Below, in pieces: positions 12,361-34,210 of a DNA stretch of 44,045 nucleotides (within the stretch, counting starts at the first letter, position 1; the number at the start of each line of letters is the position of its first letter). The translations under genes were made by a program, and so were the position numbers. Origin of the DNA: Dysgonamonadaceae bacterium (GTDB lineage Bacteria; Bacteroidota; Bacteroidia; Bacteroidales; Azobacteroidaceae). The DNA is taken from positions 1-44,045 of the forward strand of contig JAISUN010000062.1 in assembly GCA_031272085.1 (NCBI GenBank). The letters run 5' to 3'. The notes under the pieces were generated by a model. It made no database searches and was not told the DNA's origin. It was given only the letters and a program-made list of their open reading frames with translations.

Positions 12361-14853
12361 ATGATGAAAATAACTAGCATTGTATTTTCATTTCTTACTA
12401 TCGGTTTAACCCTTGTTTCTTGCCGTGATGAGTACGATTACAACGACAGGGAGCCGGATAAGACAATGGTAGGAAATAGTATTTATGATTGGCTAACTGA
12501 TGACGGGAATTTTACCTATTATCTGCGAATCGTAGAATCCATTCAGGATGCGGGAGTCAATTATGCAGAAGTTTTGAAAACGACCGGTACGAAAACTGTG
12601 TTTGTGGCCGACGATGCTGCTTTTGAAGCATTTTTCGCCAACAATCCTTATGGTATCCGGAAGTTTGAAGATTTTACTGCTTCCCAAAAACGGGCGATTT
12701 TCTTTTCCTGCATGCTTGACGACGCATATCTCGTAGAGATGATGTCAAGCACGCCCGGAGCCAGCGGCTCGAAACCGAATCAGGGACAGGCCATGCGGCG
12801 GACTACTTCGTGGTCGGCGCTCGATTCCATTCCCTTTGAAAAGGGAAGCGGTTTGCCCGACAATCCTGCTTGGGAACAGTACCGCGAATCAGGTATTTAT
12901 GTCTTGAAAGACAATGCCCAGTGGACAATGGTTCATTTTTTGGAACCGCAAATGCGGCTTCAAGGCATTACCGGCGAAGATTTCCGTATTTTAACCAAGA
13001 CGCAGGATAATCCGGCGGGAATGACCTGGGATTCCAATTCGGCCTACATTTTCAACACGAAGATTGTCCGCAAGGATATAACCTGTAAAAACGGCTATAT
13101 CAACGTGTTGGAAAAAGTGATTTTCCCGGCCGACAATATGGCCGAATATATGCGAAAAAATCCCGAAACCACGCTGTTCAGCCGGTTTATGCACCGTTTT
13201 TGCGCTCCGTATTACGACGCTGAAATAACCAACACCTACCGGCAGTTGCATCCCGATTTTCAGGATAAGATTTACGTAAAGCGCTTTTTTACAGCCTCGA
13301 ACACGTATTGGCCTAATGCCGAAGGAATTGCAGACGCCAATCATAAGGTGGACGCATATTTAAAATACGACCCGGGCAAAAACGACTATTCGCCTAACAC
13401 GGTGCAGAGCGATATGGGCGCAATGTTCATCCCCACCGACGCCGCTCTGACAGAGTTCTTTAACGAAGGCGGCGGCAAGTTTCTGAAAGAACGCTATCAG
13501 GTTTGGGACAGTATCCCCGACAACGTGATGAGCCTGCTTCTGAACAACCATCTTCATTCGTCGTTTCTGCAAACTACGCCGGAACGCTTTTCGAGTTTGA
13601 CCAACCAGATGGGTACTTCCTTGAATATCAAGAAAGAAGACGTGCTTTACTCCGAAATTTGCAGCAACGGAGTCGTATATATAGTAAATAAGGTGTATCC
13701 GCCCAGCGATTACGCTTCGGTTCGCGGCCCGATTCTTGTGAACGAGAATACCAAAATAATGAATTATGCCGTCGAAAAACTCGGATTCAAACTTTATTTG
13801 CTTTCCTTGGAAAACAAGTTCAGTTTCATAGTCCCGACCGACGACGTGTTCGACAATTATATCGCTCCGGCTTCTGTCGGCGCGGCAATGCCCGAACGCT
13901 GGAAGTTTTATATGAAAAACAATCAGGTAGCGGCAACCCGTTACAGCCTTACAACCGGCGACAGCATCGGAACGGTAACAACCTCGTTAGTCGAAAATGC
14001 GCTTGCCGATATTGTTGATAATCATATAGTTGTTGGCGACATCGAAGATGGCAGGACATACTATCAGACCAAAGGCGGCGCAATGCTTAAAGTTACCGGC
14101 AAAGGCGTAGGAATGACGCTCGACAGCGGCGGCAATGGCGAACAGGGCGAAACAGTTACCGTTGCTAACGTTTATAATCAGGACAACGGTAAGACTTATC
14201 TTGTAGATAAAATAATTCAGACGCCTACAAGTTCGGTTTATTCCGTACTCGAAAACCACGATGAATTCAGCGAATTTTTCGCGCTTTGCCGCGACGTGTA
14301 TCCCATTCAGTGGAACGGAATCACCTACGGCGGAAGTATTTTCGTGAACGACCAGTCGGGACGCGGAATTACGATGAATGTAGGATTTTTCAATACATTT
14401 AACTATACGGTTTACGTGCCTACTAACGAAGCCCTGCAAAAGGCTCACAGCCAGGGGCGTTTCAAAACTCCGGACGAGATTGAGGAATTAGACGCCGACA
14501 GTCAGGGGCCGGAAATGCAGAAACTGTACGAATTTTTGCGCTATCATTTCCAGGATAATTCGGTTTACATTGGCGGACAGCAATATAACGACGAATGGTT
14601 TGAGACGGCCGCATTAGACGATTCGGGCAAGAAATTCCGCCGTCTGTGGGTAACGAATACCGGCTCGCAAATGACTGTCAGAACTGCCGAAACAGGCGGA
14701 ATAACTGCGCAGGTAGTAACCGGCGGCGGCCTTTACAACATTATGACGCGCGACTACAAGTTCAGTTCGGGCGCCGTAACGCCTAACTCGTCGATAGTTA
14801 CTTCGTCGTATGCAGTTGTTCATCAAATAAATACCGTTTTGGACTTTCAATAA
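12361..14853 (+). CDS. Surface lipoprotein with four tandem FAS1 (fasciclin) domains
   Basis: Read from ATG 12361 the protein has 830 residues; the open frame extends to 12265, but the predicted promoter lies inside that extension. The signal peptide ends in LVSC (C21), followed by RDEYD, an acidic stretch like the export signal of Bacteroidota surface lipoproteins. Four FAS1 repeats are marked by their H1-type motifs: TVFVADDAAFEAFF (about 80), AMFIPTDAALTEFF (about 353), SFIVPTDDVFDNYI (about 487) and TVYVPTNEALQ (about 682). The first repeat carries a large insertion. FAS1 domains are known adhesion modules; a role in binding host or microbial glycoprotein is inference. It opens the locus, 6 bp before susC-like gene 1. 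Confidence 0.85.
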   Translation: MMKITSIVFSFLTIGLTLVSCRDEYDYNDREPDKTMVGNSIYDWLTDDGNFTYYLRIVESIQDAGVNYAEVLKTTGTKTVFVADDAAFEAFFANNPYGIRKFEDFTASQKRAIFFSCMLDDAYLVEMMSSTPGASGSKPNQGQAMRRTTSWSALDSIPFEKGSGLPDNPAWEQYRESGIYVLKDNAQWTMVHFLEPQMRLQGITGEDFRILTKTQDNPAGMTWDSNSAYIFNTKIVRKDITCKNGYINVLEKVIFPADNMAEYMRKNPETTLFSRFMHRFCAPYYDAEITNTYRQLHPDFQDKIYVKRFFTASNTYWPNAEGIADANHKVDAYLKYDPGKNDYSPNTVQSDMGAMFIPTDAALTEFFNEGGGKFLKERYQVWDSIPDNVMSLLLNNHLHSSFLQTTPERFSSLTNQMGTSLNIKKEDVLYSEICSNGVVYIVNKVYPPSDYASVRGPILVNENTKIMNYAVEKLGFKLYLLSLENKFSFIVPTDDVFDNYIAPASVGAAMPERWKFYMKNNQVAATRYSLTTGDSIGTVTTSLVENALADIVDNHIVVGDIEDGRTYYQTKGGAMLKVTGKGVGMTLDSGGNGEQGETVTVANVYNQDNGKTYLVDKIIQTPTSSVYSVLENHDEFSEFFALCRDVYPIQWNGITYGGSIFVNDQSGRGITMNVGFFNTFNYTVYVPTNEALQKAHSQGRFKTPDEIEELDADSQGPEMQKLYEFLRYHFQDNSVYIGGQQYNDEWFETAALDDSGKKFRRLWVTNTGSQMTVRTAETGGITAQVVTGGGLYNIMTRDYKFSSGAVTPNSSIVTSSYAVVHQINTVLDFQ

Positions 14854-14859
14854 AGAATA

Positions 14860-17800
14860 ATGAAAAGAAATTTATTATATATCTGTCTGATTGGATTCCT
14901 TTACTGTTTCCAATCGGCTCTCGCACAGGAAAGCGGCGAGATGATTCGCGGAAAAGTGCTGTCCGATATGGGCGAGGAATTAGTTTCCGCTACCGTTCTG
15001 GAAGTTGACGCTACCGGACGTGTCATAACCGACGCAATAACAGACCTTAACGGGGAATTTTCGATGAAGATAAAAAACTCCCGCAACAAGTTGAGGTTCA
15101 GTTACCTCGGTTATATTACGCAGGATGTGGCGATAGGCCAGAAGCGCAGTTTCGACATAATGCTGAAAGAAAACAATACGCTGACCGAGGTTGTAGTAAC
15201 CGGCCGGAAAACCGTATCGAGCGGCGGAATGGAAATTGCGTACAACGAAGTGCCGTTTGCGATGCAGCGCATCTCTACGGCGCAGTTCGAGGGGATGTCG
15301 ATTTCCTCAATCGACGACGCATTGCAAGGCCAGATTGCCGGCCTCGACATTGTAGGTTCGGGAAATGTGGGCGTAGGCTCGCAGATGCGACTCCGAGGCA
15401 TTTCGTCGCTGAGTTCCAATTCCAATCCTCTGATTGTGATTAACGGCGTTCAGCGTCCCGACATCGCAACCACCGATTTCGACTTCAATGCCGCAACCGA
15501 ACAGCAGTTTGCCGACCTCTTGATGTTGAATCCCGATGATATTGAGGATGTTACGGTGCTGAAAGACGCAGGAGCGACGGCCGCTTACGGTTCGCGCGGA
15601 GCGTCGGGCGTTTTGCTTATTTCGACCAAGAAAGGCGTAACCGGCCCTACCAGAGTAAATTACACATACAAATATTCGGGTTCCAAACAGCCTGCCGGAC
15701 TGAAAATGCTGAACGGAAACGACTACACTATGCTTATGAAGCAGGCGCGGTTTAATCCCAACCAGAGCAGTTCGGCCTCCGATATTCCGGAGTTCACTTA
15801 TGACCCCAATTTTTCGGAATACCGCTATTACAACAACAATACCGACTGGCGCGACGCTGTGCTGCAATACGGAAGCACACACGACCACTATTTGGCGATT
15901 TCGGGCGGCGGCGAACGCGCAAAGTTCCGAATCACAGGCGGTTATCTGTCGAAAGAAGGTACTGTCATCGGCCAGAAATGGGACAGATTGACTTCGCGGA
16001 TGAACCTCGATTACCGCGTTTCGTCGAGAATCCTGTTTTCAACCGATTTCTCGTTTACCTATTCCGACAACGACCAGAACTGGTCGGATTCGCGTAGCGA
16101 CAACGGTTACATAAACGGGAAAAGCATCCTGTATTTGGCATATAAGAAAATGCCGAATATGAGCATTTACGAAAAAGACGCCGACGGAAACGACCTTTCC
16201 ACCTATTATAATATGCGCAAAGATTCAAAACTCGCGAGCGGCGAACAGGGATATTTGCGGAATCCGGTTGCTCTGGCTCGTTTGGCGGTAAATAACGATA
16301 AATCTTACGATATTTTGCCGACCTTGCGTTTGCAGTACGATTTGCTCGACCCTTCGGAACAGACTTTGCGTTACGACGTTTACGTTTCGTTTGATATGAA
16401 TAACAGCAAGTCGCACAAGTTTTTACCGAAGGAAGTTGCTGCCAATCTCTGGTCGAGCGCCGACGTGAACCGCGCCGAAGACAACGATTCGGAAAGTTTC
16501 GGCATCCAGTCGGAAAACAAGATTCAGTGGAAGCCGAATCTCGGCCGCGACCATTCGGTGAGCCTTTTTGCTTCGCTATACACTTCTTCGGGAACTACCA
16601 ACCGCCAACATTTGCTGGCTACGGGCTATCCCAACGGGCATATTTCCGACCCCTCGGCCGAAGGCTACGTCCGCGAACTGACCAGCGGCGTTGACCAGTG
16701 GCGGACAATGGCGTTCAACGGGCAGTTGCTTTATTCCTACCGCTCGAAATATATTATGTACGCGACTTTGCGCCGCGAAGGTTCGACCCGCTTCGGAAAA
16801 GACAACAAATGGGGATTTTTCCCCGGCGTTTCGCTCCGATGGAATATTGCGGAAGAAAATTTCTTCAAACGGGCGAAAGATTATGTCAATATCCTTGCAA
16901 TCCGCCCCAGTTGGGGTATTACCGGCAAGGCTCCCGACCGCGAATATCTGCATTTCAGTTCCTACGCTCCTTGGAGCAGTTACGGCGGCGTTTCGACCAT
17001 CCGGCCTGAAAACCTGCGCCTCTCGAACCTGAAATGGGAAACGACAAACGAATACAACCTCGGTTTCAATTTGGAAGCATTTAACAGCAAATATGCGGTT
17101 GAAGGCAACTTTTTCTACCGAAAAGTTACCGATTTGCTTTCAAAAGAAGCGCCTTTGCCTACTACAACCGGCTACGACAAACTTTCGTACCGCAATGTCG
17201 GTTCGATGAAAACTCTGGGCTGGGACGTGAACATCCGCGCAAACCGCTTTGTAAAAGCGGGCGATTTTTCGGCTGACGCTTACCTCAATCTTGCGAACGA
17301 CGTGAACACGCTGGTTTCGCTCGACGAAGGCGTTTTGAGGAATTACAATAAAGATTTCACATACGACAACCGCAATGCCGATTATTTGCAGCGTTTGCAG
17401 GTAGGACACGCTTACGGTTCGATATACGGATTCCGCTACAAGGGCGTTTATCAGTACAGCATCGACAATCCCAATTTGGTTGCGAGTGGCTATACGCTCG
17501 GCACTGCGCCGGTTGTACGTAATGCCGACGGCGGAATTATCTACGACAGCAAGGGGAAACCCCTGCCGATGTACTACAATTACGGGCCTACCGGCATCAA
17601 CTACCAGTTTCAGGGCGGCGACGCGATTTACGAAGACATTAATCACGACGGAAGCATTGACGAACTCGACATTGTTTATCTCGGAAACTGTAATCCTAAA
17701 TTGAGCGGCGGTTTTGGAATGACCTTCCGATGGAAATCGCTGTCGGTTAATACTCATTTCACTTTCCGCTACGGGAACAAGATTATCAACACCACCCGCC

Positions 17801-18183
17801 GCGAAGCCGAAAATATGCTGACCGACAACAACCAGAGCATTGCCACCAACTGGCGCTGGCGCCGCGAAGGCGACGTTACGACTATGCCCCGCGCTCTGCA
17901 CGCTTACGGCTACAACTCGCTGCCGAGCGACCGCTACGTGGAAGACGGTTCGTTTACGCGATTCAAAAACATCACGCTGAACTACCAGATTCCTAACGAA
18001 TTAGTCAGAAAATACAACATCAAGCAGTTGAACCTTTATATGACCGTCAACAACCTGCTGTGTTTCAGCAAATATGAGGGCGTTGACCCCGAAATCGGCT
18101 ACGGCAGCATGGGTTTGAGTAAAGACGAATCAATCACGCCGCGCTCGAAGGATTTCACTGTTGGACTTACTATTGGTTTTTAA
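14860..18183 (+). CDS. SusC/RagA-family TonB-dependent outer membrane transporter (copy 1)
   Basis: A 1107-residue protein with signal peptide (cleavage near ALAQES, about residue 23). Domains in order: a carboxypeptidase-D regulatory-like domain (about 30-105), a TonB box region TEVVVTG (about 110), plug (about 125-265) with the SusC marks PLIVINGVQ and LLMLNPDDIEDVTVLKDAGA followed by AAYGSRGASGVLLIST, then the beta-barrel to the end. It should form an energy-dependent import channel with the SusD-like lipoprotein 27 bp downstream. In known systems SusC imports oligosaccharides, but RagA imports peptides, so the cargo here is open. Confidence 0.95.
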   Translation: MKRNLLYICLIGFLYCFQSALAQESGEMIRGKVLSDMGEELVSATVLEVDATGRVITDAITDLNGEFSMKIKNSRNKLRFSYLGYITQDVAIGQKRSFDIMLKENNTLTEVVVTGRKTVSSGGMEIAYNEVPFAMQRISTAQFEGMSISSIDDALQGQIAGLDIVGSGNVGVGSQMRLRGISSLSSNSNPLIVINGVQRPDIATTDFDFNAATEQQFADLLMLNPDDIEDVTVLKDAGATAAYGSRGASGVLLISTKKGVTGPTRVNYTYKYSGSKQPAGLKMLNGNDYTMLMKQARFNPNQSSSASDIPEFTYDPNFSEYRYYNNNTDWRDAVLQYGSTHDHYLAISGGGERAKFRITGGYLSKEGTVIGQKWDRLTSRMNLDYRVSSRILFSTDFSFTYSDNDQNWSDSRSDNGYINGKSILYLAYKKMPNMSIYEKDADGNDLSTYYNMRKDSKLASGEQGYLRNPVALARLAVNNDKSYDILPTLRLQYDLLDPSEQTLRYDVYVSFDMNNSKSHKFLPKEVAANLWSSADVNRAEDNDSESFGIQSENKIQWKPNLGRDHSVSLFASLYTSSGTTNRQHLLATGYPNGHISDPSAEGYVRELTSGVDQWRTMAFNGQLLYSYRSKYIMYATLRREGSTRFGKDNKWGFFPGVSLRWNIAEENFFKRAKDYVNILAIRPSWGITGKAPDREYLHFSSYAPWSSYGGVSTIRPENLRLSNLKWETTNEYNLGFNLEAFNSKYAVEGNFFYRKVTDLLSKEAPLPTTTGYDKLSYRNVGSMKTLGWDVNIRANRFVKAGDFSADAYLNLANDVNTLVSLDEGVLRNYNKDFTYDNRNADYLQRLQVGHAYGSIYGFRYKGVYQYSIDNPNLVASGYTLGTAPVVRNADGGIIYDSKGKPLPMYYNYGPTGINYQFQGGDAIYEDINHDGSIDELDIVYLGNCNPKLSGGFGMTFRWKSLSVNTHFTFRYGNKIINTTRREAENMLTDNNQSIATNWRWRREGDVTTMPRALHAYGYNSLPSDRYVEDGSFTRFKNITLNYQIPNELVRKYNIKQLNLYMTVNNLLCFSKYEGVDPEIGYGSMGLSKDESITPRSKDFTVGLTIGF

Positions 18184-18210
18184 TTGTTAATGACTGTAAT
18201 ACAACGAAAT

Positions 18211-19842
18211 ATGAAAAATAAATTAATAAGATATGCAGCAACGGCGCTTGTTCTGATTTTCTCTGCTTCCTGTTCCGATTTTTTGGACATCAAGCCATTG
18301 GACAAGATGGTGCTGGAAGATTACTGGAAAACGCAGAGCGACGTTGAATCGACCGTTTTGGCCTGCTACCGCGCAATGCAGGAAGACGGCTATATGGAAC
18401 GCATCATTTTAGCGGGCGAACTTCGCTCCGACAACGTGATTGTCGATGAGTCGAAACTCTCGACCCCCGCCGATATTGTTCACATCAACGACCTGACTAT
18501 CAAGCCGACAAACGGATACCTGAAATGGCAGGATTTCTACCGCGTCATCAACTATTGCAACGCAGTGATAGAGTTTGCCCCCGGCGTGGCCGAAATCGAC
18601 CCGAACTATACGGCAGGTTTTATGCGCTCGCATTTGGCCGAAGCGACGACAATCCGCGCACTGACCTATTTCTATTTGGTCAGGATTTATCGCGACGTGC
18701 CTTACATCGACTTTCATTATAAAGACGATACACAGCCGATGCAGATTCCCCAAACTTCGGGAAAGGAAATCCTGAAAAAATTAGTCGAACAGTTGGAAAC
18801 AGCCGAGCGTTACGCCCTCACTTCGTGGGGACAGAATACGGTATGGCAAAAAGGCCGCGTTACGAAAAACTTTGTCCGCGCTCTGGAAGCCGATATTTAC
18901 CTCTGGCTGGGCGAATACGACAAGTGTATCGCCGCCTGCGAACGCATCGAACCCGATATTCTGGGCGAAAACGACATTCTGAATCCGGAACTTGCTACCG
19001 GAGCCGAATTGCGCTTTATTTCCAATAAAACAAACGCCCTCAATGCCCTGTCGCTGATTTTCCTCGGCGAAAACAGCGCCGAAAGCATTTTTGAACTGCA
19101 ATTCGATTCCTACGGACAGGCAAACAATAAACTCAACTCGCTGTATTACGGCTCCTCGACCGGTATCGGGCAGTTGGCGGCCGCTACGTTCAGCAGTTAC
19201 GACGACGGAAAATTTTTCGACGCAAAAGACGTCCGCGGACAATCTTCGTTTTCCCCGCTCTCGAAATCGGGAAGCGCACAGGGATTCTCGAAAATCGTAA
19301 AATATTATTCGGTAATGACGCTTAACGACGACGGAACTGTTGCCACAACCACTTCAAAAAATGTGGACAACAATCCGCCCAACTGGGTGCTTTACCGCGT
19401 GGCCGACGTCTATCTGATGAAAGCCGAAGCCCTGGTAGAACGCAATCAGGCAGGCGATTTGGAAAAGGCTCTGGAACTTGTAAACACGACATTTTTGCGC
19501 TCGGCTCCCGAAGGCGTGCAGTTCCTTATGGACGACTACAACAGCCAGGCGGCAATGCGGAAACTCGTTCTCGACGAACGCCAGCGCGAATTTCTGTTTG
19601 AAGGCAAACGCTGGTTCGACCTTGTACGCTCGGCGCTCCGCGAAGACGACCGCAACGGCGGGCCGGACAATCATCCGCTCACGCTGAACTATATTATTCG
19701 GAAATACACCTACAACGGCGAGGTAATCCGAAGCAAACTGATACACACCGACGCTTTGTATCTGCCGATTCATTCCGACGAGTTGATTAACAATCCGACT
19801 TTGGTGCAGAATCCGTATTACGAAGTAAATATGAGCAAATAA
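18211..19842 (+). CDS. SusD/RagB-family surface lipoprotein (copy 1)
   Basis: Starting at ATG 18211 the protein has 543 residues; the frame opens upstream at a TTG (18184). The signal peptide ends in SASC (C21), followed by SDFLD as in SusD. The family signatures are DFLDIKPLDKMVLEDYW, the TPR-like helices around residues 90-240, YLMKAEALVERN (about 405) and LDERQREFLFEGKRWFDLVRS (about 460). It is the lid and substrate receptor for SusC copy 1. Its residues differ greatly from the second SusD in the locus, so the two pairs probably bind different ligands. Confidence 0.93.
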   Translation: MKNKLIRYAATALVLIFSASCSDFLDIKPLDKMVLEDYWKTQSDVESTVLACYRAMQEDGYMERIILAGELRSDNVIVDESKLSTPADIVHINDLTIKPTNGYLKWQDFYRVINYCNAVIEFAPGVAEIDPNYTAGFMRSHLAEATTIRALTYFYLVRIYRDVPYIDFHYKDDTQPMQIPQTSGKEILKKLVEQLETAERYALTSWGQNTVWQKGRVTKNFVRALEADIYLWLGEYDKCIAACERIEPDILGENDILNPELATGAELRFISNKTNALNALSLIFLGENSAESIFELQFDSYGQANNKLNSLYYGSSTGIGQLAAATFSSYDDGKFFDAKDVRGQSSFSPLSKSGSAQGFSKIVKYYSVMTLNDDGTVATTTSKNVDNNPPNWVLYRVADVYLMKAEALVERNQAGDLEKALELVNTTFLRSAPEGVQFLMDDYNSQAAMRKLVLDERQREFLFEGKRWFDLVRSALREDDRNGGPDNHPLTLNYIIRKYTYNGEVIRSKLIHTDALYLPIHSDELINNPTLVQNPYYEVNMSK

Positions 19843-21820: not shown

Positions 21821-23473
21821 ATGAAAGATATAAAAACTAAAATATTTTGCAGTTTTGCAGCCCTGCTCATTATGTTCGGCGCAGCGGTTTCGTGCAGCGA
21901 GGCCGACGAACATTACGGGGCTTCGGACGAAGTGAAAGGCCGCGTTTCGCTCTGGGAAATGATTTCCCAGAATCCGGAATTGAGCGTTTTCGCTTCCATG
22001 CTGCAACATTATTCCTACGATAAACTCCTGTCGGGCGACCAGACTTACACTGTTTGGGCTCCCGCAAACGAGTTCCTCGGCGGAATAAGTATCGACGATT
22101 CGCTGACAGTTGCACGAATCATAACATCGCACATAGCCCGTTATTCCTATCCGGCTTCGGAAAAAACTTCCGAAAATTCGGATATCTATATGTTAAATGC
22201 TAAAAAACAGGCATTTACACATTCCGGAGCCGCTTATTTGATGGGCGGCGTGGAACTGCAATCGGCTAATATGGCCGCAAATAACGGAATTTTGCATATC
22301 CTGAACGGGAAAATCCCGTTTTTCCCGAATATTTGGCAAACAATGGAAGAATCGCGCTTCGATTCCATCCGCAACTATCTGTATTCTTTCAACAAACGCG
22401 AGTTTTTGCGCAGCGCTTCGCAACAGATTGACATCAACGAAGAAGGGATGATTGTTTACGATTCGGTTTTTTCCGTTCAAAACACGATGTGGTACGTTTA
22501 CAACGGAGCAAAAGGCATCGGCTGGCTCAACAACGAAGACAGCCTCTACACGATGGTTTTGCCCGACAATAACGCCTGGCGCGAAACATACGAGAAATAT
22601 TATCCCCTGTTTTTGCCCGACCCTTCGCTCGAACAGCAGGATTCTATGCAGGCAGCCAATACGCGCTACGCAATAGTTCAGGATTTGGTTTTCCGCGGCG
22701 AGATAGCAAATCCGGGAATTTTCTCGACAAACGATTCCTTAATTTCCACCCGCGGAGCGGTAATCCACAATCCGGCGCATATTTTCGGCGGAAACGAAGC
22801 GGTGCATACCAGCAACGGCTGGGTTTATCCTACCTCGAACCTGCAATACGACATGACGGATTCTTATGTAAAACATATAAAAATAGAGGCGGAAATTTAT
22901 TCCGGCCGTCTGCACGACGAATCGCGCGATATGAGTACAATTTCAAACCAGTGGGAAACCTCGATTCCGGGAATCTCTAACAACGGCTATCTGTTTGTCC
23001 GCAATCTGGGAAAAAGTTCCAGCGAAACTCCCACCATTTCCTTTGAAATTCCGGGCGTTTTGCATACCGAATACGATATTTACGCCGTCTTCCTCTCGCC
23101 TTCGTTTGTGAAGCCTGCGAGCCAGGATACTTCGGTTACGCGCGTGAAGTTTGAAATTCAGCAGTGGAACCGCCTCGGCCCGAAATCCGACGACCGCTTC
23201 TGGGGCAACGGCAAAAACTGGGGACCCGGCTACACTCTGGCTTCTTTCAGCGGCACCGGCCCCGAATGGGTAACAGAGAAACGCGGAATTACCGTCATCA
23301 AGGCGGCAGAACGCTACGTATTTCCGTTCGCTAACGTGAATGAGACTGACAACGTATTCAGAATCAGGGTGATAAGCGCCCCTTCGCGAACAGATACTAA
23401 CAGTAAGGATAATAAATTTAACAAAGAAATGCGAATCGATTACCTGTTGTTGGTTCCTTCGCCTTCAAACTAA
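21821..23473 (+). CDS. FAS1-domain lipoprotein with C-terminal beta-sandwich (second)
   Basis: A 550-residue lipoprotein with signal peptide ending in AVSC (C25) followed by SEADE. The first FAS1 domain covers about residues 40-165, with TVWAPANEFLGGI and GILHILNGKIPF. A second FAS1-like domain (about 170-330) has TMVLPDNNAWRETY and VYPTSNL. The C-terminal about 190 residues form a predicted beta-sandwich ending RIDYLLLVPS, closely like FDYLELVPS of the previous gene. It lies 15 bp before susC-like gene 2 and so precedes the second transporter as the four-FAS1 lipoprotein precedes the first. Confidence 0.8.
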   Translation: MKDIKTKIFCSFAALLIMFGAAVSCSEADEHYGASDEVKGRVSLWEMISQNPELSVFASMLQHYSYDKLLSGDQTYTVWAPANEFLGGISIDDSLTVARIITSHIARYSYPASEKTSENSDIYMLNAKKQAFTHSGAAYLMGGVELQSANMAANNGILHILNGKIPFFPNIWQTMEESRFDSIRNYLYSFNKREFLRSASQQIDINEEGMIVYDSVFSVQNTMWYVYNGAKGIGWLNNEDSLYTMVLPDNNAWRETYEKYYPLFLPDPSLEQQDSMQAANTRYAIVQDLVFRGEIANPGIFSTNDSLISTRGAVIHNPAHIFGGNEAVHTSNGWVYPTSNLQYDMTDSYVKHIKIEAEIYSGRLHDESRDMSTISNQWETSIPGISNNGYLFVRNLGKSSSETPTISFEIPGVLHTEYDIYAVFLSPSFVKPASQDTSVTRVKFEIQQWNRLGPKSDDRFWGNGKNWGPGYTLASFSGTGPEWVTEKRGITVIKAAERYVFPFANVNETDNVFRIRVISAPSRTDTNSKDNKFNKEMRIDYLLLVPSPSN

Positions 23474-26400: not shown

Positions 26401-26722
26401 AGCCGAAGGACAGACGACCAACGTTCCCCGCGCAGTTTACGGCGACCCGATGGAAAACAACGTTTTTTCCGACCGCTGGATTGAAGACGGCTCGTATTTC
26501 CGCCTGAAAACGCTGACGCTCTCTTACGAAATCCCGATTACTTCGCTTTATCTGCAAGGAATCACGCTCTGGGCTTCGGCCAACAACCTGTTTACCCTGA
26601 CGAAATATCTGGGCAGCGACCCCGAATTTTCCATGGGCAACGGCGTTCTGTATCAGGGAATTGACGCAGGATTGCTGCCTCAAAGCCGCAGTTATTTCTT
26701 CGGAGTAAAAATTAACCTGTAA
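23489..26722 (+). CDS. SusC/RagA-family TonB-dependent outer membrane transporter (copy 2)
   Basis: A 1077-residue protein with signal peptide (AQDRTVSG junction at about 27-30). A carboxypeptidase-D regulatory-like domain (about 30-105) is followed by the plug (about 125-245) with ALFIRGINSLNASAQPLIVV, then INSKDIESITVLKDGN and IYGSKAANGVILI; the rest is beta-barrel. The usual TonB box (TEVVVTG-like) between the regulatory domain and the plug is not visible; the linker reads SGYGNVESLSGSVRKTTDIQ. Either the box is unrecognisable or energising differs from copy 1. It pairs with the SusD-like protein 13 bp downstream. Sequence similarity to copy 1 is limited to family motifs, so this is an old or independent pair. 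Confidence 0.93.
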   Translation: MKKYNLIDAFRPAVIASMLFCGLNLQAQDRTVSGVIRDAVTGRPLMGVQVKTADGRAVAISDTAGVYTIKTGSVSDVLLINAPDYSLREIPLQGRQTADVNLYSSRFSSGYGNVESLSGSVRKTTDIQAVNQASDFWSTTAVSIDSKLQDLLGGDVRAIHRSGQTGAGTALFIRGINSLNASAQPLIVVDGVVWDNQLDGVSIHEGFFSNPLANINSKDIESITVLKDGNTIYGSKAANGVILIKTVRAKEKATKITANLSWGLNMKPELPKMLDAAQYKRYASNQVLGWYQSRQTTVPSEETLISVFPFLNENAASTSYLDYHNNSNWANEIYQNGLVQDYSVGISGGDDVALFNLAMSYSTNDGVIRNTDMERFTVRFNSDIKMSSKLFANVDLAVGKTSRNLRDDGVDDVTSPGFLALVKSPLIAPYMRNKTTGEFSPTLSDYDKIDPLAPLSNPRALTDVATGSSSRMNFLLHLNPYFKFSKNLLAGTVFSYKLDRVKESFFIPNKGVAPRELSFGIGILSNEVRDLAQRQSSIFSDTYVKWNPNFGEHRLAVLGGYRYMTDDYEWDLPSGYNTGNDNIKVLTNGLGYRSIVGEQRQWKSMSWYASADYDYLQKYILSVSASADASSRFGQQTEGGVKIGGVNWALFPSVGAAWIVSSEEFMNNVSLIDLLKLRVSYGLTGNDGIDVNANRSYFNSVYYMGGATGLQLGNIQNRQVEWETSRKLGAGIDLHLLDERLMLSADVFSSHTDNLLTQKTLKSISGMDVYWSNGGALKNKGFEVSIDAKAVNTKSFKWEVGASAGHYKNEITALPDGAYITEILNGNILTAVGSPAGVFYGYKTKGVFSTSEQAKAANLSKLNTNGTLTSYGAGDVWFEDTDGNGIISSVSSGSIWTADGVKTLNDDRQVIGDPNPDYYGTFSNRFYFKRFSLDALFSWSYGNDVYNYLRSQLESGATFYNQTAAMENRWTAEGQTTNVPRAVYGDPMENNVFSDRWIEDGSYFRLKTLTLSYEIPITSLYLQGITLWASANNLFTLTKYLGSDPEFSMGNGVLYQGIDAGLLPQSRSYFFGVKINL

Positions 26723-26735: not shown

Positions 26736-28481
26736 ATGAAAAATATAATAAAATCTCGTTTCCTGCCCCTTTTGCTCTGTATGGCAATAGTTTTGCCGTC
26801 CTGCAAAGATATGCTGGATACCAACTCCAACACCTATCTGAATACCGACGATAACCTGCTCCAATCGGCAAACGATTCGCTGTATTCGGTTATCGGAATT
26901 GTGCAGAAAATGGAGCAGTTGGGCGAACGATACGTCGCGCTGGGCGAACTGCGCGGCGACCTGATGGACGTTACCAAAAACGCAAGCATGGACTTGCAGG
27001 CTGTGGCCGATTTCACGGCAACGGCCGACAATCCATATCTTTCTACGAAAGAATATTACGCAGTAATAAACAACTGCAACTATTATTTGCAACACGTTGA
27101 TACATCCATAGTTTCGGCCGGACGAAAAGTTATGCTCGGCGAATACGCCTTAGTAAAAACACTGCGTGCGTGGACTTATCTGCAACTCGGCCTCAATTTC
27201 GGAAAAGTTTTCTGGATTGAAGAACCGGTGCTGACTATCGACGATATGAACCGCCAATATCCCGAAATTTCGGTCGAGGAACTTGTTCCGCGCCTGATTA
27301 GCGATATTGAACCTTTTGTTGGCCTCGAAGATTATCCGTCATACGGCTCCATCAACGGGCTTTCGATAAATGCTTCGCTGATTCCCGTTCCGGTAATGCT
27401 TGCCGAACTCACGATGTGGAATGCAACTTTCACCGGCAGCGTTGCGGAATACGAAAAAGCGGCGCGGCTGTACTACCACTATTTTACTACTTCGAGCGCT
27501 TACCGTGCTTGCACACAGTACAACCAGTATTACGACAGCGAGTTTAAGGAAATAAGCGGCGCCTCTACGTGGTTTAGTTACTTTACGGCGCTGAACGAAA
27601 CTGTAAGTTGCATCCGCTACAATTATAATTTTTCAGAATCGCCTGTGATTCCGCCTTTGGCCCTGCTTTGCCTGCCGTCGAATATGTCCGATACATACAA
27701 AGTCCAGCCTTCGCAGGCGGCTATCAGCCTGTGGAACAATGAGATATACGCATTTTACCGCAGTTCGCAAAAAGACGTAGTTTATAATTACGGCGATTTG
27801 CGCGGAAATCCCGGAAGTACCATGGCAACAGGTTCTTACAGTTACGCCAGCACAAACGAAGCCGATTCGCTGCCGTATATCACAAAATACGGTTATTTAA
27901 GAGGCAGTTCGGCAAACATACTCTATTTCGTAAATCTTTTCCGCGAAGGGAAGATGTATCTTCGTTATGCCGAAGCCCTGAATATGGCCGGAAAGCCCTC
28001 GCTGGCTTTCGCCGTGCTGAAATACGGACTTAAATACGAAGTGCTGACCGACCCGGCAAAGGTCTCGCCCGACGAGATTACTCCTTTCCCGGATTATTGC
28101 GATTTCACTTCGGACACGTATTCTACATATTCTTCCAATCGCGGACTGCACAGCCGCGGCTGCGGAAATGTCGATTACGATACCGTCTATTACGCTTTCA
28201 CGCCGGAAACTCTGAACGAAAACCGCGCTTACTACGGTTTTCCCGAAACTCTGGATACGAAAACCGACTCGATGCAGTTTGTTAATGTGATGATTTGTAA
28301 AGAGTTAGGCTTGGAAACGGCATTTGAAGGCAATCGGTTTCACGACCTGATGCGCCTCTCAAAAGTTCACGAAAGGCTGACCGGAAAATCCGATTTTCTC
28401 GCCCGCTGGGTAGGACGCAAAAATCCCGCTCTGGAAGCGAAACTCGAAAATCAGGCCAACTGGTTTTTACCCTTCAAATAA
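26736..28481 (+). CDS. SusD/RagB-family surface lipoprotein (copy 2)
   Basis: A 581-residue lipoprotein with signal peptide ending in LPSC (C23) followed by KDMLDTNSN. It shows the family features LGELRGDLMDVTKNAS (about 70), EYYAVINNCNYYL, the helix RAWTYLQLGLNFGKVFW (about 145), YLRYAEALNMAGKPSLAF (about 405) and the late ELGLETAFEGNRFHDLMRLSK. It should cap SusC copy 2. The following gap (53 bp) is the first wider spacing in the locus and contains an imperfect AATCTTTG box, so an extra promoter for the next genes is possible but weak. Confidence 0.92.
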   Translation: MKNIIKSRFLPLLLCMAIVLPSCKDMLDTNSNTYLNTDDNLLQSANDSLYSVIGIVQKMEQLGERYVALGELRGDLMDVTKNASMDLQAVADFTATADNPYLSTKEYYAVINNCNYYLQHVDTSIVSAGRKVMLGEYALVKTLRAWTYLQLGLNFGKVFWIEEPVLTIDDMNRQYPEISVEELVPRLISDIEPFVGLEDYPSYGSINGLSINASLIPVPVMLAELTMWNATFTGSVAEYEKAARLYYHYFTTSSAYRACTQYNQYYDSEFKEISGASTWFSYFTALNETVSCIRYNYNFSESPVIPPLALLCLPSNMSDTYKVQPSQAAISLWNNEIYAFYRSSQKDVVYNYGDLRGNPGSTMATGSYSYASTNEADSLPYITKYGYLRGSSANILYFVNLFREGKMYLRYAEALNMAGKPSLAFAVLKYGLKYEVLTDPAKVSPDEITPFPDYCDFTSDTYSTYSSNRGLHSRGCGNVDYDTVYYAFTPETLNENRAYYGFPETLDTKTDSMQFVNVMICKELGLETAFEGNRFHDLMRLSKVHERLTGKSDFLARWVGRKNPALEAKLENQANWFLPFK

Positions 28482-28534: not shown

Positions 28535-30928
28535 ATGAATAAAGTATTTACTTTCGGCGTACTTTTCCTGCTGTCGATGCTGACAACAGTAAGTTTCGCT
28601 ACGAACAACGCCAAGAGAAACGCCCAACTGCGAGACGGTTCGGCCGATTTGGTAGCCCCGAATTTCAGTTCGGCCGACGATTCAAATGAAAACTGGTATT
28701 ATATCCGTTTCAAACGTCAGGCAACAAACAATCTGGTTTGGACAACCGATTACCCTACTAACAACGCTTCTTGGGGTATCAAGCAACTTGCACAGTCCGA
28801 ATCTGCTTCGGGAAAATTAGCGCAGCAATGGAAACTGGTCGGCAGCGCCGAATCGTTTTCCATCGTCAACCGTGCAACCGGTTTTTCGGTTGCTTATGCA
28901 GCGGCAGAAGATGCTGAAAAAGGCATCCGCGGCAGCAATTACGTAGTTGGCGTAGACCCCTCGACATATCCGGCAGCCGACCTCGTTCTGGAACGCAGCG
29001 ACGCCAATCTGGATACCTATTGGGCTAATCCTCCCTCGCTGGGATGGGTAATTTACAACCCCTCTATCAGCATCCACGCATTTATTAACGACCGACAAAC
29101 AACGACTAATTATCCTTGGCGCGACGCTTGCTACTATTATTATATGGATGCAGGCGACATCATCGAATTTGTAGATGCAGTAAAACAGACCATCGTTGTT
29201 GCTACCGACTCTGTCGGAATCGAAACCCTCGAAGGCGGACATACCGGACAGGCTGTATTCAGCGGCATTACGAACTTCAACCTCGACGGCGCGATTACCG
29301 CTACCATCGAAGGTCCCGACGCTGCAAACTTCGGATTCCTGAACGACGTAAACACCTTGCCCTCCGGCAGCGGTTCGCTTACTATCACTTTCACACCGCA
29401 AGAATCGAGAACTTACCGCGCTACTCTGGTTCTGAACGGCGGAACAGCCGCTCCTGTCAGCGTTATCCTCAACGGTACTGCTTTCAGCAGCGAACTGATG
29501 CCGAAAATCAGCGACGAAAACGAAGAACACTGGTATTTCATCCAGACTTACCGCCGCGCTGCCGCCAACACCGTTTGGTCGTTGAGCGACACCACGCTGA
29601 TGATTGTTCAGGATACCCTGAAACCGGCTAATATCCGCGACGACCAGAAATGGAAAATCGAAGGAACATGGGAAGACGGATATTATTTCGTCAATAAAGC
29701 CGGATACGAAATGGTTTACAACGAAACGAAATCGGACGACGGAACCCGTCCCGCCGACCGTTACCTCCGCGCTGGCCTCGGTTACGGCGACCTCTTTGAA
29801 TTTACCCGTTTCCGCGTAAGCGAAGGCGTATATCAAGACTGGCAACTTCTCAACCGCACATTTGTAAACGACAAACCGACAACAACTTACAAATATTTGA
29901 ACGACCAGCAGGGACGTTTCCTCTGCCAGTACGTAATCAACGACGGCGGAAACCGTATGGTATTCATTCCTGCCGACGAGCCGATTATCAAATCGCCGAC
30001 CGCATCGCTCGCTCTGGAAATTCCTGCCGGCGCTACTGTTAGTTCGACGATTTCTGTACTCGGCCTCAACTTGGCAGGCGAAATTACCGCTACAATCACC
30101 GGAGCCGACAAAGATGTTTTCGGTTTTGGCGAAGAAGGAGCAACTCTGCCCGGCGTTGGCGGAAAACTGACTGTTACTTTCAATCCCGTTGATGTTAAAT
30201 CACATTCGGCTACTCTCACGCTCACCAGCGGAACCGCTACGCTCGATATTCCTCTGACAGGAAATTCCGACCTCGGCTTGCCGATTTTCAATCCGACCGG
30301 CAATGAAGGATGGTATCAGATTTCGTTCAACAGAAACACAACGAAAGCAGCGCTCGCTATCACCGCTGTTCCCGATGCACTCGGAAACCGCTACGATACC
30401 CAGGTTATGCAGACCCCGAAAGACGCTTCAAACCGCGACCAGTCGTGGAAATTCGTCGGAAACTGGACTGACGGCTTCCAAATCATCAACCGCAACGGCG
30501 GCGCTTTGAGTTTCGATGCCATCAATACCCAAAGATTCCTCCTCATCGAAGAAGAAGCATTCGGCGACAAGTTCCTTTTCTATCGTCAAAATTCGACCTC
30601 GAACTGGCAACTCAACTGCGTGGGCAAATGGGCTGACGACGATGTCGACGAAACTTACATGAACGACTGGAACGGAAACGCAGGCGACGGCAGCGTTAGC
30701 CTCTATTACGTGAACGACGGCGGCAACACGCTGATTTTCACTCACGTATTGGAAGACGCAATCAATGCGCCGGCTATCGACGCTAACGACAAAGTCGTTT
30801 CGGTTAAATACTACAACCTGCTCGGCGCTCAAATCCAGCGTCCGACCAAGACCGGAATATATGTTGTTCAAAACACGTATGCTTCGGGCAAGGTAAAAGC
30901 AGTAAAGCAGTTGTTCATCATTAAGTAA
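28535..30928 (+). CDS. Secreted repeat protein: three lectin-like and two ASH-like domains with a T9SS-type tail
   Basis: A 797-residue exported protein (signal peptide to about FATNNA, residue 25). A domain of about 140-170 residues recurs three times, each opening with W-Y-x-I/F and closing on a Q-x-W-K...G...I/V-N motif: NENWYYIRFKRQA (about 49) to QQWKLVGS, EEHWYFIQTYRRAAANTVWS (about 330) to QKWKIEGTW, and NEGWYQISFNRN (about 590) to QSWKFVGNW. These look like ricin-type/lectin beta-trefoils. Between them lie two about 85-residue ASH-like beta domains (ITATIEGPDAANFGF and ITATITGADKDVFGF). The end VKYYNLLGAQIQRPTKTGIY resembles a shortened Por (T9SS) sorting domain. Probable surface or released glycan-binding protein. 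Confidence 0.65.
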   Translation: MNKVFTFGVLFLLSMLTTVSFATNNAKRNAQLRDGSADLVAPNFSSADDSNENWYYIRFKRQATNNLVWTTDYPTNNASWGIKQLAQSESASGKLAQQWKLVGSAESFSIVNRATGFSVAYAAAEDAEKGIRGSNYVVGVDPSTYPAADLVLERSDANLDTYWANPPSLGWVIYNPSISIHAFINDRQTTTNYPWRDACYYYYMDAGDIIEFVDAVKQTIVVATDSVGIETLEGGHTGQAVFSGITNFNLDGAITATIEGPDAANFGFLNDVNTLPSGSGSLTITFTPQESRTYRATLVLNGGTAAPVSVILNGTAFSSELMPKISDENEEHWYFIQTYRRAAANTVWSLSDTTLMIVQDTLKPANIRDDQKWKIEGTWEDGYYFVNKAGYEMVYNETKSDDGTRPADRYLRAGLGYGDLFEFTRFRVSEGVYQDWQLLNRTFVNDKPTTTYKYLNDQQGRFLCQYVINDGGNRMVFIPADEPIIKSPTASLALEIPAGATVSSTISVLGLNLAGEITATITGADKDVFGFGEEGATLPGVGGKLTVTFNPVDVKSHSATLTLTSGTATLDIPLTGNSDLGLPIFNPTGNEGWYQISFNRNTTKAALAITAVPDALGNRYDTQVMQTPKDASNRDQSWKFVGNWTDGFQIINRNGGALSFDAINTQRFLLIEEEAFGDKFLFYRQNSTSNWQLNCVGKWADDDVDETYMNDWNGNAGDGSVSLYYVNDGGNTLIFTHVLEDAINAPAIDANDKVVSVKYYNLLGAQIQRPTKTGIYVVQNTYASGKVKAVKQLFIIK

Positions 30929-30951
30929 ATATTGCTTTTTGATTTCTAATC

Positions 30952-30983: not shown

Positions 30984-31022
30984 GAAATTTATGATAATTA
31001 CTTGTAACACACTAAATTAAAT

Positions 31023-32204
31023 ATGAAAAAAAGACTATTTTCAGGGCTTCTTTTAAGCATTATCTGCTGTCTGAACCTGCTGGCTCAATCTTCCTCGACC
31101 GAAGCGAATCCGAAATGGTATTACATTCAGGTTAAAGGACTTGGATTGAACGCAAACCGCGTTCTTACCGACCTCGGCGACCAGGTAAGCGGACAGCCAC
31201 TCGCTACGACCGACGTTGACGCCGTAAGCCGCCAACTCTGGCGTTTCGAGATTGCGCAGGGAGCCTCGGGATATACCGTTATCAACAAATATTCCAAAAA
31301 GCAGTTGTCCGTCGCCTTCGACGGCAGCGTGCGCCGACCGGTTATGGCCGAATCTTCGCCGTATGTCTGGTCGTTTACAACATCCACCGTTTCGGGATAT
31401 AAATACGTCAAAATCCTGAACGAACCGCAGGAAGGAACAAAAGGCGACATCTATCTTTCGCAGACTTTCTATCAGAATTATGCCTTAAAATTGGTGTCGG
31501 AATCTGACCGCGTAACCGACAGCGAAGTTTTCCGCTGCGTGCTGAACGAAATTCCCGTTCCAAGCACCGACGACGCTGTTGTCTGGATGACAATCCGCAA
31601 TCCGAAAACGGATAAATATCTGACCGACGGCTCATCGTCTGTCGGCACAAACTTTATTTTGGAAGCCAAAAACGGCTCGCAAGCGCAACAATGGAAAATG
31701 CAGGCCAAAGAAAACGGAAATTACGATTTCGTAAACCGCGCAACCGGCAGCATTATTTCCACAGTTACAAATCTGAACCGCTACTATTACCTCAATAACG
31801 CCGCAAATACCGACCAGAGCGCAGGCTGGAAATTCGCTCCGGTAAACGCACAATCTAATCAGTATGAAATATCTGCGACAGACGAAAAAGGCGTAATCAG
31901 TTACTGGAACGCTACTACCGACGGACAGGCTCCCGAGGTTTATTCTAACGGAAATTCGTTAAACTCAACATATTCGTGGATTTTTACCTGGGTGGAAGAA
32001 ATTCATACCGGCCTCAATCAGCCGACCATCGTTGCCGACAACATCCGCGTTTATTCGATGAACCGGCGGATTTACGTTGACGGCTGCGACGAATACCGCA
32101 TCACATCGCTTTCAGGGCTTCCGGTACGGAAGAATGTAGAATTGCCGACAGGAATTTATTTAGTTACGGCAAAATCAAAAACTGTAAAAATCCTTGTAAA
32201 ATAA
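31023..32204 (+). CDS. Secreted lectin-like protein with T9SS-type C-terminal sorting domain
   Basis: A 393-residue exported protein with signal peptide ending near LLAQSSS (about 22). It carries two copies of the lectin-like repeat seen in the previous gene: PKWYYIQVKGLGLNANRVLTD (about 30) to RQLWRFEIAQGASGYTVINKYS, and VVWMTIRNPKTDKYLTDG (about 182) to AQQWKMQAKENGNYDFVNRATG. The tail from about 340 (IRVYSMNRRIYVDGC, then YRITSLSGLPVRK and LPTGIYLVTAKSKTVKILVK) matches the pattern of a type A Por sorting domain, so export by a type IX system is likely. It is separated from the previous gene by a terminator and lies 5 bp before the M60-like gene. Confidence 0.7.
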   Translation: MKKRLFSGLLLSIICCLNLLAQSSSTEANPKWYYIQVKGLGLNANRVLTDLGDQVSGQPLATTDVDAVSRQLWRFEIAQGASGYTVINKYSKKQLSVAFDGSVRRPVMAESSPYVWSFTTSTVSGYKYVKILNEPQEGTKGDIYLSQTFYQNYALKLVSESDRVTDSEVFRCVLNEIPVPSTDDAVVWMTIRNPKTDKYLTDGSSSVGTNFILEAKNGSQAQQWKMQAKENGNYDFVNRATGSIISTVTNLNRYYYLNNAANTDQSAGWKFAPVNAQSNQYEISATDEKGVISYWNATTDGQAPEVYSNGNSLNSTYSWIFTWVEEIHTGLNQPTIVADNIRVYSMNRRIYVDGCDEYRITSLSGLPVRKNVELPTGIYLVTAKSKTVKILVK

Positions 32205-32209
32205 AAAAT

Positions 32210-34210
32210 ATGCTTCTGAAAAATATATTCAAAATAACGTTCGCAACTCTGTTTGCTTTATGCAGCGTTTCGGCAGGAGCGCAACAGTCTTTCCTGACGG
32301 CGATTCCTACCGAATCTTCGCTGGCAGCCTCTATCGAGGGCGATATTGCCGTCCGTCCCAAGAGCGCTTACGCTTCCAACTATCAAAACGGCACATCGGA
32401 AGGCCCTATCGCGCTGTCTATCGACGGAGATTTAAGCACAATCTACCACTCGTCGTGGAGCAATACAGTATTTCCAATTACTCTGGAATATTATTTCGAT
32501 TCCTCTGTCGACCAGATTGATTACCTGATTTATTATCCGCGCACTTCCGGCACAAACGGGAATTTCAAAACTCTGGAAGTCTGGTACGAAGCCGACGGAA
32601 ACACAATGACAAAATACGGCGATTTCGATTTTCAGGGAACTTCCGAGCCTAAAACCGTAACTTTCGAACCGGCAATCAAGAATCCCAAAACAATCCGCTT
32701 CGTAGTGAAATCGGGCGTTGGCGACAATGGAACCGGATATGCAAGTTGCGCCGAAATGGAATTTTATAAACGAAATCCCAACAGTTTCGACTATACTGCC
32801 GTCTTTACCGATGAAACCTGCTCCGCTCTGAAACCGGGCGTCACGCTCGACGAAATCAACAATATAAGCGACGGTTTCTACCGCAAACTGGCTTCCGACA
32901 TCTACAACGGATTCTATAATACCGAATTTCGCGTTCAGGAATACCGCGCTTGGGAACATCCTGACGTTAAGGCCGCTGTAAATAAAACATCGCCTTACAG
33001 CCTGCGCGACAACCCCTCCGGAATTTATGTTTCCTCGGGCGAAGACCTGATTGTTTTTGTCGGCGACACGCACGGACAAAACATTTCCCTTATCACACAA
33101 GACCTCTCGACAGGCGGTCAGGGAACGCAAAAAACTTACGTGCTGAAACGCGGCATCAATAAATTGCGTATGTCCTTCAAAGGCCTGGTTTACGTGCAGT
33201 ATTACAACAGTCTGGGCGCGGCGGCTCCGAAAGTGAAAATCAATTTTGTTACCGGCGCCGTAAACGGATATTTCGACAGCCAAAAACATCAGGCTTCGGA
33301 CTGGAACCGCCTCATTAACGCCGCGGTAGCCCCCGATTTCGACGTACTCGGACAGTTTGCCCACCTCACTTTCCCTGTTGCAAATTTCAAAACGCTGACC
33401 GACGGAAAGGCTTATATCGATAACTGGGATACTCTGGTGTATTACGAACACGAATTTATGGGACTTTACAAATATCCCCAATATAAATTTCAAAACCGCA
33501 TTTATTGCCACGCCGATTACAATCCCGATGCTTCGTGGATGTATGCAACTTCTTACCGCACAGCATATTCGCCCGGAACTTGGAGCGATGTTGTCGCACA
33601 AAACTGGCAACATACCGGAACCGTCTGGGGGCCTGCTCACGAAATAGGCCACTGCAATCAGGTGCGTCCCTCATTTAAATGGCTGGGAATGACCGAAGTA
33701 ACGAATAATATTTATTCGCTCTACGTGCAGACTTCCTTCGGAAACACTTCGCGCCTCATCAGCGACGGCATTTATGCAAGGGCGTTCAGCAAAAACAATA
33801 CCGGAGTTTCGCACCAGGATTTGGGCGACGTATGGTTTCAACTCGTGCCTTTCTGGCAGTTGAAACTTTACCTGCACGACTGCCTCGGCAAAACGGATTT
33901 TTATAAAGACCTCTATCAGTATTTCAGAACTCACGCCGACCCCACAACTCCCGCTACCGACGGGCGTTATCAGTTATATTTCGTGCGCGTGGCCTGCGAA
34001 GTGGCAAACCTCGACCTCACGGAATTTTTTGAAAAATGGGGCTTCCTGACGCCTGTAAACAAGACTATTAACGATTACGGCTCTGCGGCTTTTATCGTTA
34101 CCCAGGAGCAAATCGACGCTTTGAAAGCCGAAATAGCCGCAAAAAATTATCCCAAACCGACGAAAGATTTTTCGCGGATAACGGACGCAAATAAAGATAC
34201 TTATAAGTAA
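32210..34210 (+). CDS. M60-like (enhancin/mucinase type) metallopeptidase with N-terminal discoidin-like domain
   Basis: A 666-residue exported protein (signal peptide ending in SAGAQQ, about 25). A discoidin/F5-8C-like beta-sandwich (about 45-190) contains IALSIDGDLSTIYHSSWSN and IRFVVKSGVGDNG. The peptidase part (about 220-620) has the zinc motif H477-E478-I-G-H481 followed after 14 residues by E496 (HEIGH...TEVTNNIY), the HExxHx(8-28)E pattern of the M60-like family. Known members such as the Bacteroides BT4244 type cleave mucin-like O-glycosylated proteins. No lipobox and no sorting tail are seen; the protein stops at RITDANKDTYK, where related proteins may continue into another domain. 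Likely the active enzyme of this locus. Confidence 0.85.
   Translation: MLLKNIFKITFATLFALCSVSAGAQQSFLTAIPTESSLAASIEGDIAVRPKSAYASNYQNGTSEGPIALSIDGDLSTIYHSSWSNTVFPITLEYYFDSSVDQIDYLIYYPRTSGTNGNFKTLEVWYEADGNTMTKYGDFDFQGTSEPKTVTFEPAIKNPKTIRFVVKSGVGDNGTGYASCAEMEFYKRNPNSFDYTAVFTDETCSALKPGVTLDEINNISDGFYRKLASDIYNGFYNTEFRVQEYRAWEHPDVKAAVNKTSPYSLRDNPSGIYVSSGEDLIVFVGDTHGQNISLITQDLSTGGQGTQKTYVLKRGINKLRMSFKGLVYVQYYNSLGAAAPKVKINFVTGAVNGYFDSQKHQASDWNRLINAAVAPDFDVLGQFAHLTFPVANFKTLTDGKAYIDNWDTLVYYEHEFMGLYKYPQYKFQNRIYCHADYNPDASWMYATSYRTAYSPGTWSDVVAQNWQHTGTVWGPAHEIGHCNQVRPSFKWLGMTEVTNNIYSLYVQTSFGNTSRLISDGIYARAFSKNNTGVSHQDLGDVWFQLVPFWQLKLYLHDCLGKTDFYKDLYQYFRTHADPTTPATDGRYQLYFVRVACEVANLDLTEFFEKWGFLTPVNKTINDYGSAAFIVTQEQIDALKAEIAAKNYPKPTKDFSRITDANKDTYK

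Follow-up and report, generated by a model that had tools for sequence, protein, structure and literature searches.

Among the closest described counterparts of the locus studied here is the BT4240-50 PUL of Bacteroides thetaiotaomicron, in which a CBM32-bearing M60 O-glycopeptidase lies beside a SusCD pair and a glycan-binding lipoprotein, and which is proposed to bind, cleave and import mucin glycopeptides (PMC11992087). This PUL has one SusCD pair and GH2/GH109 enzymes, and its M60 enzyme is a surface lipoprotein. A second system of the same species, the RG-I locus, contains the SusCD pairs BT4164/65 and BT4168/69 with the surface glycan-binding protein (SGBP) BT4167 between them, as given by locus-tag order (PMC8002723), together with the lyase BT4170. 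In the levan and dextran utilisomes, one type of SusCD each is decorated by surface lipoproteins (SGBP, GH) to form a stable machine (PMC7618045), and White et al. pose as an open question whether the utilisomes of distant Bacteroidetes resemble those of gut Bacteroides (PMC7618045). Regarding the peptidases, the family of BcM60C is reported to require O-GalNAc (PMC13355702).

FAS1 domains, in turn, are regarded as adhesion domains (PMC6032426). In a flavobacterial symbiont, a FAS1 protein is among the top transcribed genes and was interpreted as serving adhesion (PMC10199937); the same source also reports, for that symbiont, two SusCD pairs on one contig, and draws no link between these and FAS1. 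FAS1 or fasciclin is not mentioned in the main text of the BT4240-50 paper (PMC11992087), and fas1 has 0 occurrences in the text matches from PMC7618045.

The ten-gene locus and its surroundings

The window (i.e., the whole stretch of DNA analysed, 44,045 nucleotides of contig JAISUN010000062.1) belongs to a draft genome of an uncultured Dysgonamonadaceae bacterium, which comprises 2.63 Mb in 139 contigs and is 82% complete. Ten closely packed genes, all on the + strand, occupy positions 12361-34210 in the order FAS1a, SusC1, SusD1, FAS1b, FAS1c, SusC2, SusD2, LecA, LecB and M60. Pfam, NCBIfam and the coordinates thus bear out the gene content and order given by an earlier sequence-only reading of this DNA. 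The locus fits a SusCD-type PUL with two adjacent SusC/SusD pairs, the degradative enzyme within the ten genes being the M60 peptidase; no RG lyase (PL9/PL11) or other pectinase was found among the ten with Pfam. Inspection of the signal sequences by eye revealed a lipobox-like Cys in all FAS1 and SusD proteins of the locus, and an ordinary signal peptide in LecA, LecB and M60.

FAS1a (12361..14853, +) is an 830-aa lipoprotein whose best start is the ATG at 12361 (PF02469, E 6.7e-18, scanned from 12265). Its AF2 model, with a pLDDT of 76.5 and a pTM of 0.70, presents four tandem FAS1 domains, and Foldseek aligned it over its full length to the four-FAS1 proteins TGFBIp/periostin with an E-value of 1e-22 and a low TM-score of 0.28. 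FAS1b (19854..21797, +; PF02469) is a lipoprotein modelled as two FAS1 domains followed by a C-terminal carbohydrate-binding-like (CBM-like) beta-sandwich, and the lipoprotein FAS1c (21821..23473, +; PF02469, E 1.3e-8) is its full-length homologue, with a profile match of E 3.5e-25. Given the domain composition of the FAS1b model and the homology of FAS1c to it, these two proteins are most likely surface glycan-binding proteins, while FAS1a, judging by its model, most likely serves SusC1 as a scaffold or spacer.

The TonB-dependent importers SusC1 (14860..18183, +) and SusC2 (23489..26722, +) match TIGR04056 with 700 and 614 bits, respectively, and are followed by the lid lipoproteins SusD1 (18184..19842, +; PF07980, E 2.7e-29) and SusD2 (26736..28481, +; PF07980, E 6.8e-8). 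Among PDB structures, both importers score best against 8aa4 (E 3.5e-93 for SusC1 and 1.7e-95 for SusC2) and far more weakly against RagA 6sli, which rules out RagAB as the nearest importer and contradicts the RagAB-type assignment made previously.

LecA (28535..30928, +) is a secreted protein with ricin-like and Ig-like parts, whose PF14200 match (E 4.6e-5, 24.5 bits) falls below the cut-off of 25.6 bits; LecB (31023..32204, +) is a secreted ricin-like protein whose match to the same family (E 9.8e-9, 36.2 bits) lies above it. Both have sorting-tail-like C-termini. The sorting tails formerly ascribed to them are in part upheld: the C-terminal tail is kept in homologues, yet neither LecA nor LecB matches the C-terminal sorting domain TIGR04183, of which the window genome has 39 matches at E <= 0.01, none of them on the window's contig.

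The M60 peptidase (32210..34210, +) consists of a CBM32 (F5/8C), an M60-like_N and an M60 catalytic domain (PF13402, E 2.5e-45). Its catalytic site is intact, HEIGHCNQVRPSFKWLGMTE, i.e., HEIGH...E (HExxH plus the downstream Glu). The best PDB match is the O-glycopeptidase BcM60C (9pl8, E 2.4e-115), and by similarity to it the enzyme is predicted to be an O-GalNAc-dependent O-glycopeptidase; as the closest PDB structures are proven O-glycopeptidases, the mucin-type activity proposed from the sequence finds support. The CBM32 is best matched by 7blg (E 1.4e-40). When the ligand residues of the BT4244 CBM32 (PMC11992087) were mapped on the 7blg alignment, the offsets did not all fit, and GalNAc binding is not claimed for this domain. 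Neither a lipobox nor a sorting tail is visible by eye in the window M60 or in five other cassette-linked M60 proteins. Cleavage at the surface, and hence cleavage before import, can therefore be offered as a proposal only, and the cleavage-then-import sequence of the former reading is not supported as it was stated. In a related genome, a single frame of 1096 aa (L073, 971-4258 of G005:C3) joins a LecB-like part, an M60 part and a sorting-tail-like end, linking both functions; its TIGR04183 match, with E 0.0013, is under the model cut-off.

Upstream of the locus, carbamoyltransferase and PyrI genes lie on the opposite strand. Directly beyond M60 follows a convergent TrpB-like gene (34340-35701), past which GH2, GH27, DUF4861 and UxaC genes occupy 35878..43660 (+); the GH2 protein has exo-glucosaminidase Ig-type domains, and UxaC is a glucuronate isomerase. 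This group is probably a separate unit, and the retrieved stretches around the other five M60-cassettes showed no homologues of GH2, GH27 or UxaC. The claim that glycoside hydrolases and regulators are lacking holds for the ten genes, although GH2 and GH27 lie past one convergent gene.

Conservation of the FAS1/double-SusCD cassette

The first seven genes, in the order FAS1a-SusC1-SusD1-FAS1b-FAS1c-SusC2-SusD2 on one strand, form a cassette that is present in the window and, with identical order and 23-36% identity, in a paralogous copy on another contig of the same genome (L010). Within the genus, twelve of the 19 cassette-bearing contigs present the complete order, six end at a contig edge (L045, L046, L052, L054, L060, L061), and L056 has no FAS1b.

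A scan of named genomes with an alignment of L010-like SusC1 yielded 470 relatives, and the analysis continued with the best 80. These 80 named loci represent the L010-like branch; the window's own branch was observed in the genus and in L082, L085, L089 and L092-L095. Among the best 80 of 470, FAS1a stands immediately 5' of SusC1 in every locus (80/80), and all seven genes occur in order in 73, with six loci broken by contig ends and one having a split SusC1. The association of FAS1 with SusCD noticed in the sequence-only reading is thus real and very conserved, and the conservation check that it had called for comes out in favour of genes 1-7. The relatives span from Marinilabiliaceae to Flavobacterium, Chitinophagaceae, Sphingobacterium and Echinicola, the hosts including Natronoflexus, Alkalitalea, Leeuwenhoekiella, Pedobacter, Pontibacter and Arcicella as well. 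One record, labelled MAG: Williamsia sp. isolate E01, an actinobacterial name, contains a typical Bacteroidota cassette (L163) and is probably a mislabelled or contaminated assembly.

For other Bacteroidales families, the complete order was found in 12 of 20 loci, selected non-randomly by the length of the FAS1 frame. These twelve include L087, in which FAS1a is cut by a contig end, and L090, which was counted as complete with a minus-strand frame beneath an equally long opposite frame as its FAS1b. Regarding the remaining eight, four are cut by contig ends (L081, L095, L097, L100), three are rearranged (L082, L093, L094) and one has no cassette (L099). In the three rearranged loci FAS1a or FAS1b is positioned elsewhere, so the order is not absolute.

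Of 117 loci considered for comparing divergence, 113 had SusC1 and 99 had all seven roles; in these 99 complete sets, the seven proteins agree in their pairwise distances with Spearman correlations of 0.86-0.94. Part of this agreement comes from the shared ancestry of the hosts, yet the two cassettes of the window genome differ in all seven genes. Given that the seven-gene order recurs across Bacteroidota, the arrangement is more than chance, and genes 1-7 are, on sequence evidence, an ancient cassette inherited as a unit. Among the frames of the 80 named loci, those with a lipobox-like pattern close to an early Met number 68/80 for FAS1a, 50/77 for FAS1b, 66/75 for FAS1c, 72/82 for SusD1 and 71/74 for SusD2, versus 13/87 for SusC1 and 9/77 for SusC2.

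The cassette is not universal: any FAS1 match at all was found in 16 of 38 genus genomes. FAS1 domains of any type occur in at least 71 of 295 genomes of the order sample, and FAS1c (profile E <= 1e-30) in at least 8 of 392 genomes of the phylum sample, the window's own counted, a lower bound with at most three candidates scored per genome. FAS1b-type genes also occur without SusCD, as a pair in L055 (9910-16392 of G025:C4) and singly in L058 (857-5546 of G013:C199), and in both places adjoin a protein of the S9 prolyl oligopeptidase family. Two FAS1a-size matches of equal score and opposite orientation on G005:C100 (2108-2365, -, and 8577-8834, +) would fit an inverted duplication or an artefactual palindrome of the assembly.

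Enzymes accompanying the cassette

Near the paralogous cassette of the window genome, on the opposite strand, lies a PL11 rhamnogalacturonan lyase. The cassette (L010, 276-19999 of G000:C40, continued in L011, 1-5205) is followed by a catalase gene, and the opposite strand holds the PL11 protein, which has PATR repeats, and a long divergent frame that matches no Pfam family; in L051, PL11 comes directly after SusD2. From the 80 genomes with an L010-like cassette, 50 were tested, and all 50 contain PL11 (PF21348). In 27 of the 50, PL11 and the locus share a contig and lie within 25 kb of each other, whereas about 1.7 would be expected under uniform placement; these figures cover cassette-bearing genomes. 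By coordinates alone linkage amounts to 33/50, and the 27 were kept where the contig size equals that of the locus contig, which left out L116, L118, L136, L143 and L178 (contig mismatch) and L111 (three contigs, none fitting). The PL11 of L158 fits at 34 kb only and on a different contig, and the linkage in L139 is backed by the similarity of the frame preceding FAS1a to the PL11 of L011. Neighbourhood inspection did not bear out PL11 as adjoining L083 and L090. The branch related to L010 thus shares its genomes, and frequently its loci, with PL11 lyases. The control Bacteroides, B. ihuae, has a PL11 match and no FAS1 match.

Cassettes nearer to the window have mixed cargo: GH95, GH92, GH43 and DUF3472, T9SS laminin-G proteins, and hybrid two-component sensors or sensor propellers; DUF4450 lies beside related cassettes. 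In L042 (16622-19999), a protein of at least 1126 aa without Pfam match stands right after SusD2. Since the cassette accompanies PL11 and other cargo, it is no glycoprotein device as such. A specificity of the FAS1/SusCD part for glycoproteins is ruled out by PL11, GH95/GH92/GH43, DUF3472 and DUF4450 beside related cassettes, and the glycoprotein capture system proposed for all ten genes has to be given up for this part.

The lectins and the peptidase are an addition within the genus. M60 lies 3' of the cassette in six loci of six genus genomes (the window, L049, L053, L056, L057, and L048 with L078), where SusD2 is followed by LecB and M60, with LecA interposed after SusD2 in three (the window, L053 and L048/L078); LecB adjoins M60 in the other five loci as well. 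LecA homologues 3' of SusD2 were found in L048/L078, L050, L052 and L053, and further M60-cassette loci would fit the split contigs of G005, G015 and G018. In the tree, from which L056, having no FAS1b, was left out, the M60/lectin-linked cassettes (the window, L048, L049, L050, L053, L057) go back to one ancestor with a support of 1.0, the only other member of this clade being L043, with different cargo. Many further M60 genes in the genus have no cassette next to them. In one genome, an M60-LecB-M60 set (L072, 659-16790 of G007:C83) lies near an ordinary SusCD pair and not near a cassette; the same genome also carries two cassettes with other cargo.

An M60 match with E <= 1e-20 was found in 17 of 295 genomes of the order sample, the window's own included. 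The cassette is absent from all 11 M60 neighbourhoods that were retrieved beyond the genus, namely L075, L076 and nine in L181-L195, and an ordinary SusC/SusD pair is close to M60 in 7 of the nine L181-L195 neighbourhoods. Within the examined sample, this suggests that cassette and M60 were joined in this lineage. The co-occurrence of M60 with FAS1 and SusCD that the sequence-only reading proposed to look for is therefore present in six genomes of the genus and missing in the eleven neighbourhoods beyond it. The lineage of the window's genus apparently acquired lectins and M60 in place of another enzyme part, in part of the genus.

Proposed function and comparison with known systems

In our view, the locus fairly probably represents a variant, directed at glycoproteins, of a FAS1/double-SusCD uptake cassette that is widespread in Bacteroidota. 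What we infer of complex formation, binding and substrate is as follows. LecA and LecB, together with FAS1b and FAS1c, would hold an O-glycosylated protein at the cell; in FAS1b and FAS1c, the FAS1 pair may be a stalk or docking part and the C-terminal sandwich the glycan grip. M60 would cleave the captured protein beside GalNAc-bearing Ser/Thr, either extracellularly or, after import of glycopeptides, in the periplasm, and both SusCD pairs would import (glyco)peptides or glycans.

Where M60 acts bears on a periplasmic version, in which long glycopeptides or pieces of glycoproteins enter through the importers, the CBM32-M60 protein cuts them in the periplasm and the lectins serve for capture only. 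The signal peptides of the window M60 and the five cassette-linked ones, with no lipobox or sorting tail visible by eye, agree with it, although BT4244, a functional analogue, is a surface lipoprotein (PMC11992087) and the sorting-tail-like end of the LecB-M60 fusion in L073 points outward; we regard this version as a serious possibility, slightly disfavoured. Alternatively, the locus could still serve the plant cell wall, the cassette importing fragments of pectin type or of arabinogalactan proteins and M60 and the lectins merely opening plant or microbial glycoproteins there. The occurrence of a related cassette with PL11, a GH106 alpha-rhamnosidase directly 5' in the M60 locus of G004 (L067), and the GH2, GH27 and UxaC genes near the window locus are in line with this, yet the ten genes contain no pectinase, and the top solved M60 structures are O-glycopeptidases of a family that requires O-GalNAc (PMC13355702), which makes a role in the plant wall unlikely.

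The FAS1 proteins might also be independent adhesins that travel with the importers, being neither importer subunits nor nutrient binders. This would accord with the view of FAS1 as an adhesion domain (PMC6032426), with the adhesive role given to the symbiont protein (PMC10199937) and with the FAS1b-type genes that lie beside an S9 peptidase without SusCD (L055, L058). However, the placement of FAS1 genes ahead of and between the SusCD pairs, the same in 73 of the 80 loci (best 80 of 470), and the CBM-like C-terminal domain modelled for FAS1b argue against it, and we hold it to be improbable. The glycoprotein-targeting variant of the uptake cassette remains the preferred explanation.

A bolder reading, put forward tentatively and with more doubt than trust, is that the seven genes encode an obligate twin machine, in which three FAS1 lipoproteins would tie two non-identical SusCD importers together and cover them like a roof. 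Bacteroidota would then have a general chassis that is switched to another diet by swapping the enzyme genes that accompany it, rhamnogalacturonan lyases in one case and the lectin/O-glycopeptidase set in another. No published description of such a twin utilisome architecture (two SusCD and a FAS1 roof) was found in the literature searched. Likewise, searches for FAS1 with SusCD, TonB, PUL or pectin found no published description of the cassette, which is weak evidence given a partial literature coverage (open-access-leaning, no bioRxiv). The presence of the cassette in Bacteroidales, Flavobacterium, Chitinophagaceae, Sphingobacterium and Echinicola assigns to FAS1 proteins in Bacteroidota a role at SusCD importers that can be tested, and named hosts (e.g., Flavobacterium, Echinicola, Natronoflexus) make the question of White et al. 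testable too. The window locus, for its part, indicates how an importer set may switch from pectin to glycoprotein.

In comparison with the levan and dextran utilisomes, which likewise have lipoproteins at SusCD and contain one SusCD type each, the window cassette offers conserved gene order and correlated divergence as signs of a putative complex. The RG-I locus resembles it in having two SusCD pairs with a binding protein between them; its lyase has a parallel in the rhamnogalacturonan lyases that occur with L010-like cassettes, whereas the window has none. The window M60 is like BcM60C and BcM60K of B. caccae in its catalytic domain, and the spacing from HExxH to Glu is the same in the BcM60C alignment, where the residue preceding MYAT/MYAS is Trp in the window M60 and Phe in BcM60C. 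As in the BT4240-50 PUL, a SusCD pair lies next to M60 and candidate glycan-binding proteins, with SusC2/SusD2, LecA, LecB and M60 being consecutive. In contrast to that PUL, with its surface-lipoprotein M60, the window M60 has no lipobox visible by eye and is apparently unanchored, and the locus has two SusCD pairs, three FAS1 lipoproteins and ricin-like proteins.
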